From Saprospiraceae bacterium (GTDB lineage Bacteria > Bacteroidota > Bacteroidia > Chitinophagales > Saprospiraceae), in contig JABSSK010000004.1 in NCBI GenBank assembly GCA_013214265.1, forward strand, positions 1 to 40,774: a stretch of 40,774 bases of DNA, written 5' to 3'. A program made the position numbers and the translations under genes. The notes under the pieces were generated by a model. It did no database searches. It had not been told where the DNA came from and was given only the letters and a program-made list of their open reading frames with translations. Positions 10,270-27,840 of this stretch are shown in pieces. How positions within the stretch are numbered: the first letter of the stretch is position 1; every line of letters starts with the position of its first letter.

Positions 10270-10914
10270 CTATCCTTTGCGCCCAAAATCGGCTGGTATT
10301 TCTCCCCAATTTTTTGTGTCCCATTTCAGAATTGGGTTGTCGTAAGTGTTTTCTTCGAGCCATTTCTCTCCGCGCGCAATAAGCTCATAGAGAAAAGCAG
10401 TTTTGTTGGTTCTTTTTAGTTTGGTTCGGCATTTTTTGGCCTTAATCCATTTCATGGCTATAGCTGAATCCGTATAGACAGGAATATCTGATTTTTGTTG
10501 CTTCAACCAAGCCAATCCGTGAACTAATCCAAGGAACTCACCTATATTATTAGTACCCAAGGGAAATGACTGATGAAATATTCGCTCACCAGAACGTGTA
10601 TCCACGCCCTGATATTCCATTTTGCCGGGGTTTCCACTACAAGCGGCATCCACACTAAGGCTATCCCAAATAATTTTATCTCCGTCGGGATCCTCTGGTC
10701 TGATCGTACTATGTGACTTTTTTGTAGGTACACCTGATTTAGCGATATAGTTACTGCTATTATCTGAGAATGCTTCCTCTGCCGCCGAAAGAGAAGTGAA
10801 AGATTTGTATTTTGCGCCCGGAAAATTTTTGACCTGACGCAGGCACTCTGTCCAGGAGCTATAAATACCGGGCTCGTGACCCTCCCAAACTACATAGAAC
10901 TTTTTCTTTGCCAT
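10270..10914 (-). CDS. rnhA: Ribonuclease HI with N-terminal viroplasmin (RNA-DNA hybrid binding) domain
   Basis: Degrades RNA in RNA-DNA hybrids. Residues 1-48 form the viroplasmin-like hybrid-binding domain (FYVVWEGHEPGIYSSWTEC). The catalytic domain runs from about 82 to 214 with Asp89 (SVDAACSGNPGK), Glu126 (NNIGEFLGLVHGL), Asp149 (VYTDS) and Asp209 in the terminal WGEIPADFGRK, the arrangement of the Bacillus halodurans-type enzyme. I start at ATG 10914 (MAKKKFYVVWEGHEPG); the longer track ORF adds 23 hydrophobic residues and overlaps the divergent TatD ORF. Its stop is TAG, which shows that TAG is a normal terminator in this genome. Convergent with def, 14 nt apart. Confidence 0.94.
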   Translation of the reverse strand: MAKKKFYVVWEGHEPGIYSSWTECLRQVKNFPGAKYKSFTSLSAAEEAFSDNSSNYIAKSGVPTKKSHSTIRPEDPDGDKIIWDSLSVDAACSGNPGKMEYQGVDTRSGERIFHQSFPLGTNNIGEFLGLVHGLAWLKQQKSDIPVYTDSAIAMKWIKAKKCRTKLKRTNKTAFLYELIARGEKWLEENTYDNPILKWDTKNWGEIPADFGRKG

Positions 10915-11039
10915 ACATTTATTTGGTACTGAGAAAAGTAAAGGTACGATAAGAAATGGACTCGTTTTTATGATTGTTTTCATTTCATCTACCTATTATG
11001 ACCAAACACCAAAAAGCAAAGAAATTGAATCCTGCATAC

Positions 11040-19328: not shown

Positions 19329-20258
19329 TTAAGGACGTAACACAATTAATCGTTCAGTGATGGTCTCACCTGCAAAGGTGAAATGAACAAAGTATACACC
19401 CGCAGCCAAGCGTTGTACTGCTATATCCTTCTGGTAGTTACCTTCCGGTAAAAAGGTATCCTTACTTAGGGTCTGAACCAATTGTCCAGAAACCGTTCGG
19501 ATAGCAAGGGAGTACGCACCAGCGCTTGGCAGATTGAACGCAACAGAAGATTTGTCGAGCGCCGGATTCGGTTGTACGCGCAAATATAGACGGCCTAACT
19601 TTTCCAATTGTTCATCTGCAGTGTGCGTCTCGCCAATCATATTAGCCACAATATTGGGCTCCTCTTGAATAGAATCATTAGTAGGAGAAGTATTACACCC
19701 AAGTATGGTGGCGAGTAATTCGCTATTAGGGGGTGCATGAAATCCTGGTTTCAGGATAATGCTCTCACCGGCTACTAAAACGGTTTTACTTCCGGGGGCT
19801 AGTTTACCATCCGCAATTAGGGTAGAACCAGCATTGTGCCGACCCAAAGCAATTGTTCCACTAATTAGCGTGTCTCTGGGTTCGCAGGTGTTTTGAGGAA
19901 TTGGGGTGCCCCGACATTCGCACATTTGTGTATAGATATCGTTATTCGTATTTGGGTCATTATCATTGCAATCGGTCCCAACTGGTGGGCACGGATATAC
20001 ATCAAATTGTACTTCTGATATGCCACTGCAAAGAGCACCATAATTGGCAATAGCGGTGAATAACAAATATCTGGCACCAATCCCACGCAGTGCATCCCAG
20101 TCAAAACCAGAGTAATCGGGCTGTCCAGAGGCGGCATCCCAGGTAAAGACACCTGCTTCAAACCAAAATGAACCATCAAGAGAATAATCAACAGCTACCA
20201 GCCTGAATCCTTGATCTGTTGCTTGCGTAGCATTGTAATTCCATATGTGTAGATTGAC
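19329..20258 (-). pseudogene. C-terminal remainder of the PA14/discoidin T9SS cargo gene, separated by an internal TAG
   Basis: 309 codons in the same frame as the upstream CDS (20259-21743), divided from it only by the TAG at 20259-20261. It opens in the middle of a discoidin-like (F5/8 C) fold, VNLHIWNYNATQATDQGFR and VDYSLDGSFWFEAG, whose first strand (WIEYDLGEIYL) lies before the stop. Then come a Cys motif (CPPVGTDCNDNDP...CECRGTP), a segment ILKPGFHAPPNSELLATI common next to sorting domains, and a T9SS type A sorting domain (about the last 80 residues, LRVQPNPALDKSSVAFNL to ITERLIVLRP). The ORF-track start at 20066 is an internal codon, not a natural beginning. Without readthrough the product lacks its secretion and anchoring signal. 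Confidence 0.8.
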
Positions 20259-21743
20259 CTATAGATAAATCTCCCCCAGGTCATATTCAATCCAATGACT
20301 TAAACCGCGCAAAGGGTTGGGACTTTGTCGAGGAAGGCAACTCGACCAGCTATCAGCTGGGTGTGTAGAATGGCTACCTTGGTCACCACATGAGGCTACG
20401 GGCTCATAATCTCTTGCATTTGAGCAATCTTCATCAATACAAGGTGTACCTACGCATATGCACTGATCATTATAGTGATCATCAAAGGTTTGTGTATTAC
20501 TGTCGTCACAGGCTGTACCCTCAGGAATACATGCCGTTAGGCAGGTGTATTCCCTTAAGAATGAGCCATCAATAACTTGCCATATTCGTTCTTTTTGAAA
20601 AGGCGTTTTCCAATGCACGGCGAAATCTTCACTGCCCCAGTTGTCTTGATGCAATACTTCTAAATAATATAGCCTACCCTGAATAAGCCAAATGGAATCG
20701 GAAGTTTGTGATTCCTCATCATCAAAGTCTGTTTCGTAGGTATGAGCATCTACTCTAGCAATCTCCATGTTGTCGTATGAAAGGGTATCGCTATACCCCA
20801 AGTACAGAAAGACCTGATAATCGCCAGTAACATTGAATTGATAAAAGCCGCTTTCTGGAGGGTATAGCCAGGCGCGGATTCTTGTTCCGTAGTTATCATT
20901 TCTTTCCAAAGGCCCTTTTAATTCATGGAGGGTTTCACTACGACTAGGTTGGGCAGGAAAGGATTCGCTGATAAGCAAATCTTTAATTTTACGACTGTAG
21001 ATTGAATCAAAATACAATGCGTTTACCTGACCAAAGGCACCTGCACAAGGTGACGGTTCAATTGGTGTGCCATAACAATGGCAGTGGCCGTCAGCTTTAT
21101 CATTTGTGGTACTGGGATCACCATCATCACATGGTGTTCCGGCAGGTGGGCAATTTTCGATACAAGCATTGTCAAATAAAAAGTCTCCATGGATTACCTC
21201 CCATTCTGCTGTATCAGGCATAGAGGGTCTGTTCCAATAAATAGTGCCATGGTCGTACCCTAGGTGTTCTTTGTAAATAAACCAGAAATAGTAAAAATGA
21301 CCTGATTCAAGATACAAAGAGTCAGAAGTTTGAGATGCATATTTGTTGTGTTGGTCAGATTGTGTGTACCCATCAATGAAAGCAATAGTGTCTAAGGGAC
21401 TGCCGGCTCCTCCAAGGGAAAATTTTAATAAGGCATAATCGTCAGCTGTGAGATTAAAAGTATAGTACCCTGTTTCTGGTGCTTGAATAAATCCCTCCAT
21501 TACTGCACCAAAGTATTTATAATAGTTTTTAGGTGTTTCTAGTACATTGAGGTGTTTAATAATATCCGGGGACTGAGGGTAAGAAGAAGCAGCAGTCATA
21601 TCAGAAATCTTTAATCCCCTGATATCGCTGTATACACGCCATTGAATGGTTCCAGCTTCCCCCAAACAGGTGGTATCTGGTGATTGCCCCCTCAGGTAGA
21701 TGGTAGCAAGTAAAAAGATAGAAAAGATGATTGTTTTACGCAT
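20259..21743 (-). CDS. N-terminal part of a secreted PA14-domain protein, cut by an internal TAG
   Basis: 494 residues before the TAG; the intact gene would encode about 804. Signal peptide MRKTIIFSIFLLATIYLRGQ. Two PA14-like lectin modules are visible: about 30-192 (GFIQAPETGYYTFNLTADDY) and about 236-398 (YPPESGFYQFNVTGDYQ). Each is followed by a Cys motif of the form GTxCxDxxxxTxxDxxxxxCxCxGTP (about 202-227 and 409-434). A discoidin-like fold starts at about 475 (LSHWIEYDLGEIYL) and is broken by the stop. PA14 and discoidin modules bind carbohydrates, so the intact protein was probably a surface or secreted glycan-binding T9SS cargo. Third gene of an operon with DUF1800 and DUF1501, 20 nt behind the latter. 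Confidence 0.82.
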   Translation of the reverse strand: MRKTIIFSIFLLATIYLRGQSPDTTCLGEAGTIQWRVYSDIRGLKISDMTAASSYPQSPDIIKHLNVLETPKNYYKYFGAVMEGFIQAPETGYYTFNLTADDYALLKFSLGGAGSPLDTIAFIDGYTQSDQHNKYASQTSDSLYLESGHFYYFWFIYKEHLGYDHGTIYWNRPSMPDTAEWEVIHGDFLFDNACIENCPPAGTPCDDGDPSTTNDKADGHCHCYGTPIEPSPCAGAFGQVNALYFDSIYSRKIKDLLISESFPAQPSRSETLHELKGPLERNDNYGTRIRAWLYPPESGFYQFNVTGDYQVFLYLGYSDTLSYDNMEIARVDAHTYETDFDDEESQTSDSIWLIQGRLYYLEVLHQDNWGSEDFAVHWKTPFQKERIWQVIDGSFLREYTCLTACIPEGTACDDSNTQTFDDHYNDQCICVGTPCIDEDCSNARDYEPVASCGDQGSHSTHPADSWSSCLPRQSPNPLRGLSHWIEYDLGEIYL

Positions 21744-21763: not shown

Positions 21764-23179
21764 TTACAGAATAAATCCAATAGGAGCGCTTTGTGATTGA
21801 ATGGAATGGAAATTGCGGATATTAGGAAGTATAATACTAAGGTCATTTGGAGATACACCGAACCAAAGGCATAGCTCTGCAAAATATTGATCAGCTGCGG
21901 TAGTTGGGATCAAGTTACCACGCCTACTTACCATAAGCGGATTATCTTGTATATATAAATCGGGATACTGGCCATACACATCGCCCCCATTGACTGCCCC
22001 TCCAGCTACAATGGCATTTCCGCCCCAGGCATGGTCAGAGCCATTGCCATTGGAAGTTAAGGTGCGAGCAAAGTCAGAAATAGTAAATAAGGATACTTGC
22101 CGATCGAGCCCTATCTCTTCCAAAGCATTATATAAATCGCCAATAGCTCGACTTACAACACCCAGCATAAGCTCTTGTTTGTTTAGTACTTCATTATGAT
22201 GGTCCCATCCTCCGAAGGTCATGAAGAATGTTTGGCGATTATTTCCCAAGATACTGTTGGCAGCTATGGTTCGTGCGACCATATGCATGTTCTGAGATAA
22301 ATAATGACTGCTGAATTGGGTGTTGAAGGGAGGTATTTGACCCACCGCAGCTTCAAATTCTTCAATAGAGTCTAGTGTTTGGTTAGTCAAATTTCCCATT
22401 GTCTGCTCAAAGACATTACCGTACATTTTGTCAACTATACTTTTGTAAGCATTGTCCCGTACTTCATTGTTAAAACCAGCATTCCCATTCCAGCGGCTGT
22501 AAGACTTTATTCCCTGTACGCCATTCCCTCGGTTGCTAATAGAATATTCCAGCGTATGACGTCCAGACTGAAATACGTTCCTACCTGATAAGGATATATT
22601 CATAGAAACGCCTTGGTTGGTGTCGGTCTCTTGAAGCAGATCGGCTAAGCGTCCGCCCCAACCAATAGCTTCACGACTTTGGGGGATTGCAGTTTGCCAT
22701 TGTTGTATTTGATCAGAGTGGGAATATATTCCTAGTGGCAGTTTTTTTAAACCAGAACGGAAATCTGCTTCGTTTGCGAGCGGTTCAACCAGAGTACCCA
22801 CATTGGTGATAAAAGCCAGATTTCCACTTTCATATAAGGAATGAACGTGTGTCATGCTAGGGTGAATACCCAGTTGTTTAGTCTGGGACGGCGCATGTAT
22901 GGGTAGAAGAGAATCACGAGGAATGGCTAGATCAGAGCGTGTAGCAGCGTATTCAGCATATTCTGTTTGGCCAAATGGAACCAGCATGTTGTAACTGTCA
23001 TTACCACCAGCCAATAGGATACAGACAAGTGCTTTATAGTCGCCAGGCGTTTCTAGCGAAGTACTAATCAGTTTGTTAGTGCCCATAAGACTGGCTAAAG
23101 TCGACATTAGTGTTGTAGTTCCCATAGCAGCGCAACCTGCTTGGCCCAAAAAGTGACGACGAGAGATTGATTTTGACAT
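21764..23179 (-). CDS. DUF1501 family secreted protein with Tat-like signal
   Basis: 471 residues. It begins MSKSISRRHFLGQAGCAAMG, a twin-arginine export signal (Arg7-Arg8, RRHFLG). The body shows DUF1501 features: VCILLAGGNDSYNMLVPFG near the N-terminus, MTFGGWDHHNEV (His/Asp-rich) and FSDFARTLTSNGNGSDHAWGG, which resemble metal-binding segments of the alkaline phosphatase/sulfatase superfamily to which DUF1501 is related. Enzymatic activity is not established. DUF1501 genes are very often paired with DUF1800, as here (25 nt apart), so the two products probably act together outside the cytoplasm. The gap to the next gene is 20 nt. Confidence 0.9.
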   Translation of the reverse strand: MSKSISRRHFLGQAGCAAMGTTTLMSTLASLMGTNKLISTSLETPGDYKALVCILLAGGNDSYNMLVPFGQTEYAEYAATRSDLAIPRDSLLPIHAPSQTKQLGIHPSMTHVHSLYESGNLAFITNVGTLVEPLANEADFRSGLKKLPLGIYSHSDQIQQWQTAIPQSREAIGWGGRLADLLQETDTNQGVSMNISLSGRNVFQSGRHTLEYSISNRGNGVQGIKSYSRWNGNAGFNNEVRDNAYKSIVDKMYGNVFEQTMGNLTNQTLDSIEEFEAAVGQIPPFNTQFSSHYLSQNMHMVARTIAANSILGNNRQTFFMTFGGWDHHNEVLNKQELMLGVVSRAIGDLYNALEEIGLDRQVSLFTISDFARTLTSNGNGSDHAWGGNAIVAGGAVNGGDVYGQYPDLYIQDNPLMVSRRGNLIPTTAADQYFAELCLWFGVSPNDLSIILPNIRNFHSIQSQSAPIGFIL

Positions 23180-23204: not shown

Positions 23205-25001
23205 TTATCGTAATACTAAGAAGTCGGGGGAAACCATTATGAGAAAAAGCATAAGGCGTATCTGATCTTCTGGTTTTTCTGCAGAGAAATCATGCATTGC
23301 ATTCATGATGACGGCTTTGGTCTCCTCGGAGAGTTGACCCTGAGCAAGAATAAGGTTTAAGCGTTCGAGTACTGCGTTCAACTGGCCTTCCTCTGCCATG
23401 GTAAACTCTATATCTAACCCAAGGTAGGTACGGCGTGATTCTGTATATTTTTCGCCTGAGAAAATTGATTTAAACTCCATTGGGTCATGGCCACTGATAA
23501 GCCAGTTATGCATCAAATTTGCGTAACCTGTTATGGAGACCGAGTTTGTAATTTGGAATTCGGGGCCTACCAAGTTATTGTCAGCAATAGAACCTATTGG
23601 TTGGTAGTCGGGCTGGAAGAAATTGAAAACACTGGGCGATCCAAGTGGTTTCTGAAAAGTAGCACGATAGAATTTTTGCATTGCATTACGATACAATCCT
23701 TCCTCGCTGGCAGCATTAAGGCCACGGCACAATTGGGTATAACGAACAATAGGTTCTTTCAACATACCATGCCAAGGGTCATCTACATGATAACAATCGC
23801 GAGCCTCAGGATCGAGCAAGATCGCCCTGATCATTGATTTCATATCTCCACGCTCACCTTTCCCATTATCATTGAAAGCCTCCGTGACTCGTTGTATATA
23901 TTCTGGCGACGGATTTGATTTTACTAATCTTTGGATGAGTAAACGTCCAATAAATGGACCTACGTTAGGATGGTTAAACAAGTTATCAAGTGCAGCATCA
24001 ATATCCGCCATTCCATCAGGTATGGGGCGATCGGGAATCGAGTCGCCCAGCAGTAATTTCTTGGTACCGGTTTGATGCCATTGATCGAACATACGCATGG
24101 GTCGTAAAAAGCTCTGCTCACTCAGGGGGCGTTGGCCAAAGAGATAAGCATCCCCAAATGATAAGCCGGTGAATACTTTGGCAAATTCGTAGATGTCTTC
24201 ATTGTCATACGTTGGAACTGGCGTACCCTGTTCATTCATGATCTGGGTACCATCTGAATTGAGCATATATAGTCCGATCGTAAACAATTGCATGACTTCG
24301 CGCGCATAATTTTCATCGGGAAAACGATTGCGGCTAGGATCTGCTTTAGGGTTATTGATGTGGGTAAGGTAAAGGCCCATGGCAGGATGCAGGGTGATAT
24401 CTTGAAGTAAGTCACGAAAATTGCCAAATGAATGATCTAATAATACATCATAATAATTGGCGAGTGCTAGCGGATAATCGGCCAAGTCAGGTAGCTCAGA
24501 AAGAACAAAAATTTCACTGAGTCCTAGTGCAATTCGTGCACGAAGTACATCTGGTGCAGTCATGGTATATTGCCACCATGCAGTATGCCAGTAAAGGAGC
24601 CTGGGTTCTATTCGGTTGGGGTCCCCGCCACGAGCAAAAGTGGAGTCCAGTGCCATAACTGTTAATTGGCGCGTCAGGTCTTCTAATAAAAAAGGACGAT
24701 CAATTTGAAATTGCTCTTCCAGCCATTCATTATAGCTTTTTTGGGTAGTAGCTTGTATGGATGTATAGTCTGCACCTAATGTGGCTTGTGCTAAAAAACG
24801 AGATGCAGCAGTTTCATTGGGTAGCAACCCTAAACCGTTGATCGTTGAGTTGTGTGCATGGTTGTCATGGCTGCTGCGAATTTGTACGCCTCCGGTATTA
24901 CCATTTCCAATTCGTATAGGACTTTGACCAAATGAAACAGTAATTACTACAACCCACAAGCATGTCGTGAGCAAAGCCCTATACAGGTAGACATGTGACA
25001 T
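23205..25001 (-). CDS. DUF1800 family secreted protein
   Basis: 598 residues from ATG 25001 (MSHVYLYRALLTTCLWVVVI), giving a proper signal peptide ending SFGQ; the longer track start is a TTG at 25031. DUF1800 hallmarks: ASRFLAQATLG near the N-terminus, EWLEEQFQ, NFRDLLQDITLHPAMGLYL, NYAREVMQLFTIGLY and AVIMNAMHDFSAEKP. The family is helical, of unknown biochemical role, and occurs with DUF1501 in Bacteroidota, Planctomycetes and others. First gene of the operon DUF1800-DUF1501-PA14 protein; a weak -7 candidate (TAATTTTG, minus strand, 25076-25083) lies 75 nt upstream. Confidence 0.9.
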   Translation of the reverse strand: MSHVYLYRALLTTCLWVVVITVSFGQSPIRIGNGNTGGVQIRSSHDNHAHNSTINGLGLLPNETAASRFLAQATLGADYTSIQATTQKSYNEWLEEQFQIDRPFLLEDLTRQLTVMALDSTFARGGDPNRIEPRLLYWHTAWWQYTMTAPDVLRARIALGLSEIFVLSELPDLADYPLALANYYDVLLDHSFGNFRDLLQDITLHPAMGLYLTHINNPKADPSRNRFPDENYAREVMQLFTIGLYMLNSDGTQIMNEQGTPVPTYDNEDIYEFAKVFTGLSFGDAYLFGQRPLSEQSFLRPMRMFDQWHQTGTKKLLLGDSIPDRPIPDGMADIDAALDNLFNHPNVGPFIGRLLIQRLVKSNPSPEYIQRVTEAFNDNGKGERGDMKSMIRAILLDPEARDCYHVDDPWHGMLKEPIVRYTQLCRGLNAASEEGLYRNAMQKFYRATFQKPLGSPSVFNFFQPDYQPIGSIADNNLVGPEFQITNSVSITGYANLMHNWLISGHDPMEFKSIFSGEKYTESRRTYLGLDIEFTMAEEGQLNAVLERLNLILAQGQLSEETKAVIMNAMHDFSAEKPEDQIRLMLFLIMVSPDFLVLR

Positions 25002-25239
25002 ATCATAATGTATTTGTAATATGAAAACCAAGGACTACCGAGCTCCTAATCCGGTTTGGAATAAGATCTTAATATCAAAATTAGAATAATGCTGTAGAGC
25101 TTACGGCATGAACGCGTGACATGAAAAGATTAGAAAAATCAGGTTTGGTTAGAACGAGATGAATAGATAAGATCTAGGAGGGATTGATCGATTCTCTAAT
25201 TTACATAAAAGCTTTGTGTAAGTAAAGGTTTATACAAAG

Positions 25240-25307: not shown

Positions 25308-26036
25308 TTATTCCTTGCCCCCTTTGAGTTGATTTTGGTATTCTTCCAAGTCAGCCCATTTCTCCTCAACACAAAGTTGTGCTTGCTTGGCCCAAGTTCC
25401 TGGGTCATGCATACGGTAGCGGGATCCAGCTGCGTCCAGAACAGCTTGTAATTTTTCGAGGTCTGCATTAGCAAGGTCTGCCCAGCTATTAATACCAGCA
25501 TCATTGAGTAGGCCTTCAATTTTAGGTCCGATACCTTCAACAGCTTTTAGATCATTAACTTTGATCTTTTTCCCAGAAGGAAGTTCAACTTTGGCAACTT
25601 TAGCTTTAGCGGCGGGTTTTGCCTTCTTTTCTGCTGGAGCTTCCTTAGCAGCAGCTTTTTTCGTTGCCTTAACGGGTGCTTCCTCTACAGCAGGTGCAGC
25701 AGCCACAGGTGCTGGCTTCTCTGCTTTAGTTTTTTTCTTAGCAGTTGGAGCAGCTTTGGTAGCTACGGTAGTTGCTACATCTTCCTCAGTTAGAATAGAA
25801 ACGTAGGTACGGTTATTTTTTTTGCGGCGGAAGTGGACCGTTCCGTCAATTGCTGCGTGCAGGGTAAAGTCTTTACCCATGTATACATTTTCCCCAGCGT
25901 GGAATTTAGTTCCGCGTTGGCGAATAAGGATATTTCCGGCTTGCGCTTTTTGGCCTCCGAATAACTTTACACCAAGACGCTTGCTTTTACTATCCCGGCC
26001 ATTATCCGTACTACCTACACCTTTCTTATGTGCCAT
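25308..26036 (-). CDS. rpmA: Ribosomal protein L27 (bL27) fused to a C-terminal helix-hairpin-helix domain
   Basis: 242 residues, almost three times the usual L27 (about 85). Residues 1-85 are ordinary bL27 ([41 protein letters not shown]), which sits next to the peptidyl-transferase centre of the 50S subunit. Residues 86-160 are a low-complexity Lys/Ala/Pro linker like those of DNA-binding tails. Residues 161-237 form a helix-hairpin-helix-type domain ([20 protein letters not shown], then [20 protein letters not shown]). The frame is continuous with no stop or shift and no internal start of note, so the fusion appears real. The same type of tail is, to my knowledge, found on some other ribosomal proteins of this group (for example L21), but L21 here lacks it. 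The extra domain could contact rRNA or another ribosome factor; its role is unknown. Confidence 0.93.
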
Positions 26037-26496: not shown

Positions 26497-27840
26497 CTAT
26501 AAAAGGTTACGCAATGTGAAGTTTAATTTAAGTTTCTCATCCCCGCGACGCACTTTGACCTTTATTTTTTTCCCTTCTTTTTTACTGAATTTTCGCATCA
26601 TGCCCTCCATGTTAAAAAAGTTGCTCGGCAAACCATTGATAGAAGTGATTCTATCCCCTTTTTGCAAACCAACTTTGTCCGCAGGACTATCGGGAATGAC
26701 ATAAAAAACAGTGAACTTATTGAGGTTGGCACCAAACGCACTCAAAACGAGACCACTACGATCAAAGTCATAGTCTTTGGATAAATCCTGGATAGGCCTT
26801 ACGTAGATATTTTCGTCAATGTAGTCCAGAATGATGGAAAAATGCTCCAGCAGTTTATTCCCTATAATACCATTTCGGTTGTTGAGGTATACAGAGTCAG
26901 CCCGGTCAGAAAGTGCTTGAAAATGAGTTATGGGCTCGTCTAGTATCAACGTAGGCGGTAACAGATCAAAGTTTTGTACCCGCCCTAAATAACCATTAAG
27001 GGTTCCTCCCAGGCCAAAACCCAATGGACTAGGAATGACTTTTTCCGGTAGCCTGAGCAAGGAATCGGTGTTGGTGTAAAGCAGTAGGGAAAGACCTGCT
27101 CCAGTATCCATAAGCATTTTAGTTTCGATGGTTTGCTGATTGGGCAGCAAGGTTTGTGTAAATAGATAGGGTTTGCCACGGTGGAACTCAGTAGCTAAAG
27201 TTTGATACAAGCTTAAATCACGTTCGAAGAGCTGAGGGTCATAGAAGGTAACGGTTCGCTTACGATAATTAATTTCTAAAATAAATCTTCGGATCAGATC
27301 GGCTCCGATGATCCCATGAACGTTTATACCTGAAAATTGGTCAAACCGGAAATAGTCATCTTCAAGAACCAAAATGGAGCGATTATGAAGTGTCAAGCGA
27401 TCCATTTTTAGATTGATTCCACGCACTAGATAGGCATACAGCTCAGTTTTCATATCAGCACCTAAAATGGTAAAGCGCTTTTGATAGTTCACATTGAGCA
27501 TATCCGTTATCTCACGGTTGGTTAAAATGGTATGTTCTGCTCCGGTATCCAGAATAAAGCGAAGTGGGAAAATACGATTGAATACTATATTTAAGACAAT
27601 GAAATTATTTTCATATTCAAATGGTATCTCTACTTTCCCTTTCGCGGCTAAAGGGAATTTGATGTCCGTATATTGACCATGTAATACGTTCAAACTAAAA
27701 AATAGAATGAACAGAATACAAATCCGGATACCCCTTATGTTGGTATTTTTTTTAAAAGTTGGCTCCTTTTTCCTGAAAGAATTTAGTCTATGGAACAAGT
27801 ACTGTTCGCCGTCAAATATCCGCTCTAACATGATATGCAT
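26497..27840 (-). CDS. Retropepsin-like aspartyl protease with duplicated active-site motif and PDZ domain
   Basis: 447 residues. An N-terminal 35-residue charged stretch precedes one hydrophobic segment (about 40-55, ICILFILFFSLNVLHGQ), either a late signal peptide or an anchor. Two clan AA aspartyl-protease motifs follow: FILDTGAEHTIL (Asp98) and MLMDTGAGLSLLL (Asp245), with GIIGADLIRRF and GIIGNKLLEHF as the matching flap/hydrophobic motifs, so one chain may form both halves of the active site. A PDZ domain occupies about 363-447 (SPADKVGLQKGDRITSINGL). This arrangement is found in periplasmic or outer-membrane-linked proteases of Bacteroidota; the substrate is unknown. ATG 27840 or 27831 could be the start. 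It ends in TAG and is separated from rplU by 102 nt. Confidence 0.87.
   Translation of the reverse strand: MHIMLERIFDGEQYLFHRLNSFRKKEPTFKKNTNIRGIRICILFILFFSLNVLHGQYTDIKFPLAAKGKVEIPFEYENNFIVLNIVFNRIFPLRFILDTGAEHTILTNREITDMLNVNYQKRFTILGADMKTELYAYLVRGINLKMDRLTLHNRSILVLEDDYFRFDQFSGINVHGIIGADLIRRFILEINYRKRTVTFYDPQLFERDLSLYQTLATEFHRGKPYLFTQTLLPNQQTIETKMLMDTGAGLSLLLYTNTDSLLRLPEKVIPSPLGFGLGGTLNGYLGRVQNFDLLPPTLILDEPITHFQALSDRADSVYLNNRNGIIGNKLLEHFSIILDYIDENIYVRPIQDLSKDYDFDRSGLVLSAFGANLNKFTVFYVIPDSPADKVGLQKGDRITSINGLPSNFFNMEGMMRKFSKKEGKKIKVKVRRGDEKLKLNFTLRNLL

Follow-up and report, generated by a model that had tools for sequence, protein, structure and literature searches.

The question raised by this locus is what to make of a single TAG in an otherwise open reading frame. 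The window (the whole stretch of DNA analysed, 40,774 nucleotides) is contig C334 of the MAG of an uncultured Saprospiraceae bacterium, 5.07 Mb in 676 contigs and 88.6% complete. On its minus strand, an 804-codon frame (21743-19329) opens with an ATG at 21743, runs for 494 codons to the only in-frame stop, a TAG at 20259-20261, and then continues for 309 open codons to a TAA at 19329-19331. A preliminary description, made from the letters alone, had placed the ORFs 20259-21743 and 19329-20066 (both on the minus strand) in one frame with a single TAG between them, and these coordinates are correct. The gene and its parts are as follows.

19329 to 21743, minus strand: interrupted T9SS cargo gene, with a signal-peptide-like N terminus, two PA14/GLEYA modules, a discoidin domain and Por_Secre_tail; its orthologue in G001 is full-length and in frame.
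20262 to 21743, minus strand: upstream part, 494 codons, with PA14 (8.7e-17) and GLEYA (1.1e-9) matches.
20259 to 20261, minus strand: the in-frame TAG, within the discoidin domain, at a position occupied by Leu, Ile or Met in 19/19 homologues.
19329 to 20258, minus strand: downstream part, 309 open codons, with the remainder of the discoidin domain and Por_Secre_tail (2.8e-8).

The N terminus of the cargo (MRKTIIFSIFLLATIYLRGQS) resembles a Sec signal peptide, as judged by eye only. In this N terminus, its adhesive modules and its C-terminal sorting domain, the protein is like other T9SS cargo with Por_Secre_tail (PF18962), from which it differs in that the sorting domain is situated beyond an in-frame stop. 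Matches to the PA14 modules in plasmid records were distant only. The cargo also contains a Cys/Asp-rich linker, present three times (GTPCDDGDPSTTND...C.C.GTP) and without a Pfam match here; similar stretches recur across many proteins of the family.

The two ORFs are halves of one gene, since the same-genus orthologue (G001:C7, JASBTH010000148.1, Saprospiraceae MAG BWSM_29) aligns with both over its whole length in one frame, at 60% identity. The earlier proposal of one cargo gene with its sorting domain cut off by the TAG is thereby borne out. BWSM_29 shares the domains and the neighbours, and differs in having a Leu codon in place of the stop. The order DUF1800-DUF1501-cargo, facing genes for TPR-SH3, OstA-like and FAD oxidase proteins, is the same in the window and in G001, with the neighbours intact in both, and a more distant member of the family (G004) retains the DUF1800-DUF1501-cargo row. 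The names given to these neighbours (DUF1800-like, DUF1501-like, TPR-SH3, OstA-like and FAD oxidase) are putative family assignments. The two that precede the cargo are the following.

21764 to 23179, minus strand: DUF1501-like gene, the upstream neighbour in the conserved row; intact, with 81% identity to its G001 counterpart.
23205 to 25031, minus strand: DUF1800-like gene, first in the conserved row; intact, with 70% identity to its G001 counterpart, and the order kept in G001 and G004.

Further along the same strand (25308-26036) lies a gene for a bL27-like ribosomal protein of 242 aa, identified by eye only; its G001 copy (L136:3720-4439) has, also by eye, a Lys/Ala/Pro-rich linker and a helix-hairpin-helix-like tail.

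The sequence following the TAG reads VNLHIWNYNATQATDQGFR, as the preliminary description had it, and its assignment to a discoidin fold agrees with a match to F5/8 type C and with a structure model of the orthologue. The orthologous region matches PF00754 at 4.8e-6, with a score of 27.2, just below the Pfam cut-off of 28.2. The AlphaFold model of the orthologous domain (mean pLDDT 86) has a predicted fold that matches the structures of the Bacteroides chitobiase F5/8C domain and of clostridial CBM32. The TAG corresponds to residue 61 of the modelled domain, inside a predicted beta strand (residues 47-68). On this model, truncation at the TAG would leave a broken discoidin domain, with the CTD missing. 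Downstream of the TAG, the first candidate start is a TTG 64 codons on and the first ATG is 111 codons on. The absence of a start codon near the stop, together with that of a signal peptide, makes it unlikely that an internal restart yields a separate functional downstream protein.

Comparison of the codon in relatives, a check put forward at the outset, found Leu, Ile or Met in 19/19 homologues and a stop in 0/19, the syntenic same-genus copy included. The part of the gene downstream of the stop bears no mark of decay. The stretches before and after the stop share 63.0% and 60.3% identity with the orthologue, relative-rate counts against the orthologue gave no consistent acceleration of the window lineage 3' of the stop, and no second stop or frameshift occurs across the 309 codons after the TAG. 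Stop-creating changes make up 3.8% of all single substitutions in these codons, and by our own estimate ∼0.09 neutral substitutions per site should suffice for a second stop to have arisen with 95% probability. The 309 clean codons and the lack of relaxed constraint downstream exclude an old dead gene or established pseudogene. This leaves a stop that is young, tolerated or not real.

Were it young, the TAG would be a genuine nonsense mutation of very recent date, whether fixed in the population or polymorphic there, giving a truncated periplasmic protein and an incipient pseudogene. A sense codon such as relatives carry is a single substitution away from TAG, the clean remaining 309 codons are what a young lesion predicts, and cargo genes are often dispensable. 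We regard such an allele as a possibility to be taken seriously, though as the less probable account, and it is the main rival to a base error.

Were the stop tolerated, it might be decoded. Reassignment or suppression of TAG throughout the genome has in its favour the open frame after the stop and nothing else. The preliminary description had already thought general reassignment unlikely, pointing to an rnhA-like gene (10270-10983) and an aspartyl-protease-like gene (26497-27840), and both do end in TAG (the gene identities are its own). In the sampled genome, TAG terminates 99/476 long non-overlapping ORFs (21%), prfA (release factor 1) is intact, and a CUA-anticodon tRNA was not found among the tRNA loci detected in this 88.6% complete MAG. 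The one tRNA missed by ARAGORN was considered as a suppressor and reads by eye as tRNA-His. In the crAss-like phages described as using code 15 (TAG = Gln; PMC9523058), as here, TAG occurs within an otherwise coding frame; those phages are reported to reassign TAG throughout, whereas in this genome it terminates genes normally and the homologues have no Gln at the site. Genome-wide reassignment or suppression is accordingly given almost no credence.

Programmed or leaky readthrough of the TAG, yielding a short form without the CTD and a long sorted form, had also been proposed, and the frame does remain open and constrained beyond the stop. Against this, the stop is missing from the same-genus orthologue and from all 19 homologues, the 103-nt stretch from the stop onward folds no more stably than shuffled versions of it (z = +0.88) and so offers no stimulatory 3' RNA structure, prfA is intact with no CUA tRNA among those found, and other genes of the same assembly are split by TAA and TGA as well. 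Nor is there support for the earlier suggestion that the short form is released. Secretion by the T9SS requires the CTD (PMC10202324), so the CTD-less form should remain in the periplasm, where it would be trapped. Readthrough as a programmed or leaky process is therefore very improbable, and a species-specific leaky termination, in which a small share of full-length adhesin sorted to the surface accompanies a truncated form in the periplasm, is likewise highly doubtful. If the TAG were real and leaky, one gene would supply two cell compartments via termination; nothing here supports that, nor does anything support a new decoding mechanism.

The assembly itself bears on whether the stop is real. 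A sample of ∼1.07 Mb of the MAG was scanned for frames that a single stop interrupts and whose flanks both look coding, and at least six further genes proved to be each split by one in-frame stop, with TAA, TAG and TGA all used. These six, and one case from outside the sample, are listed here by position.

L079:696: recG, split by TGA; the stop is found in 1/21 genomes searched (this one), and the best recG match is stop-free in 20/21.
L175:9963: Cys/Met-metabolism PLP enzyme (cystathionine-synthase-like), split by TAA; the Pfam match (29-402) spans the stop at 154.
L135:2477: ChaN-family protein, split by TAA within the Pfam domain.
L086:3793: GH5 protein, split by TAA within the Pfam domain.
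L112:7617: PepSY-flavodoxin reductase, split by TAA within the Pfam domain.
L124:2878: O-antigen ligase-like gene, split by TAG; continuity was judged by eye, and Wzy_C starts after the stop.
L205 (G000:C365:5-1246), outside the ∼1.07-Mb sample: C-terminal fragment of sprA (T9SS translocon), with one in-frame TAA.

The G001 copy of the Cys/Met PLP enzyme is an open frame of 406 aa. A T9SS is present in the MAG, the SprA match being over the cut-off and fragmentary. The split genes have no common function, no shared stop codon and no shared 3' context. The dicodon scan worked on this AT-rich genome and was swamped by antisense ORFs in a GC-rich control (G007) and in the small G001 sample, giving no clean baseline rate; it failed to pick up the split in the window and the one at L124, both of which came from a simpler scan, so the count of split genes is a lower bound. 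Its rows L078, L094, L097 and L123 were left out of the count, and several long same-frame extensions were rejected as split genes since they look like ordinary neighbouring genes. A scan for frameshifts gave seven candidates only, two of them at N-gaps. Some 80 other sorting-domain matches over the cut-off in this genome have no stop inside the domain, from which little follows given how short the domain is. Were every one of these splits an error, about 1.7-2.0e-4 of the bases would be wrong (about 2 per 10 kb); the seven cases within the sample, this gene included, correspond to about 1.7e-4 per base. Literature searches on stop-codon errors in MAGs yielded nothing of direct use.

Since unrelated genes, including basic metabolic ones, are cut alike, the TAG is most likely either an error (of assembly or of a single base) or a loss-of-function mutation of recent origin. 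That single-stop splits are scattered over the genome speaks for error. A recent nonsense mutation in the cargo gene would require recG, the Cys/Met PLP enzyme, sprA and other genes to have each gained a stop just as recently. A similar list would, on the other hand, result from real nonsense alleles or from a consensus of mixed strains, and a rate near 2e-4 is high for a well-covered short-read consensus. On balance, the TAG is most probably one incorrect base in the consensus sequence of this fragmented, incomplete MAG. Consensus base errors would be scattered across the MAG, and one of them would have hit the cargo gene, which is last in the DUF1800-DUF1501-cargo row, uninterrupted in relatives and broken here by a single stop; the wrong letter would have arisen in sequencing or assembly and be absent from the cells. 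Of the three options offered at the start, sequence error and recent nonsense mutation thus survive, while programmed partial readthrough is unsupported, the stop being unconserved and neither a signal nor a suppressor tRNA having been found.

With the TAG read as a probable base error, the gene is probably that of an ordinary T9SS-exported PA14-PA14-discoidin-CTD protein with a putative sugar-binding role. When a gene in a draft MAG looks strikingly split, the case has to be judged against how often single stops split genes across that assembly, and since this MAG carries several such splits, its other split genes deserve equal caution.
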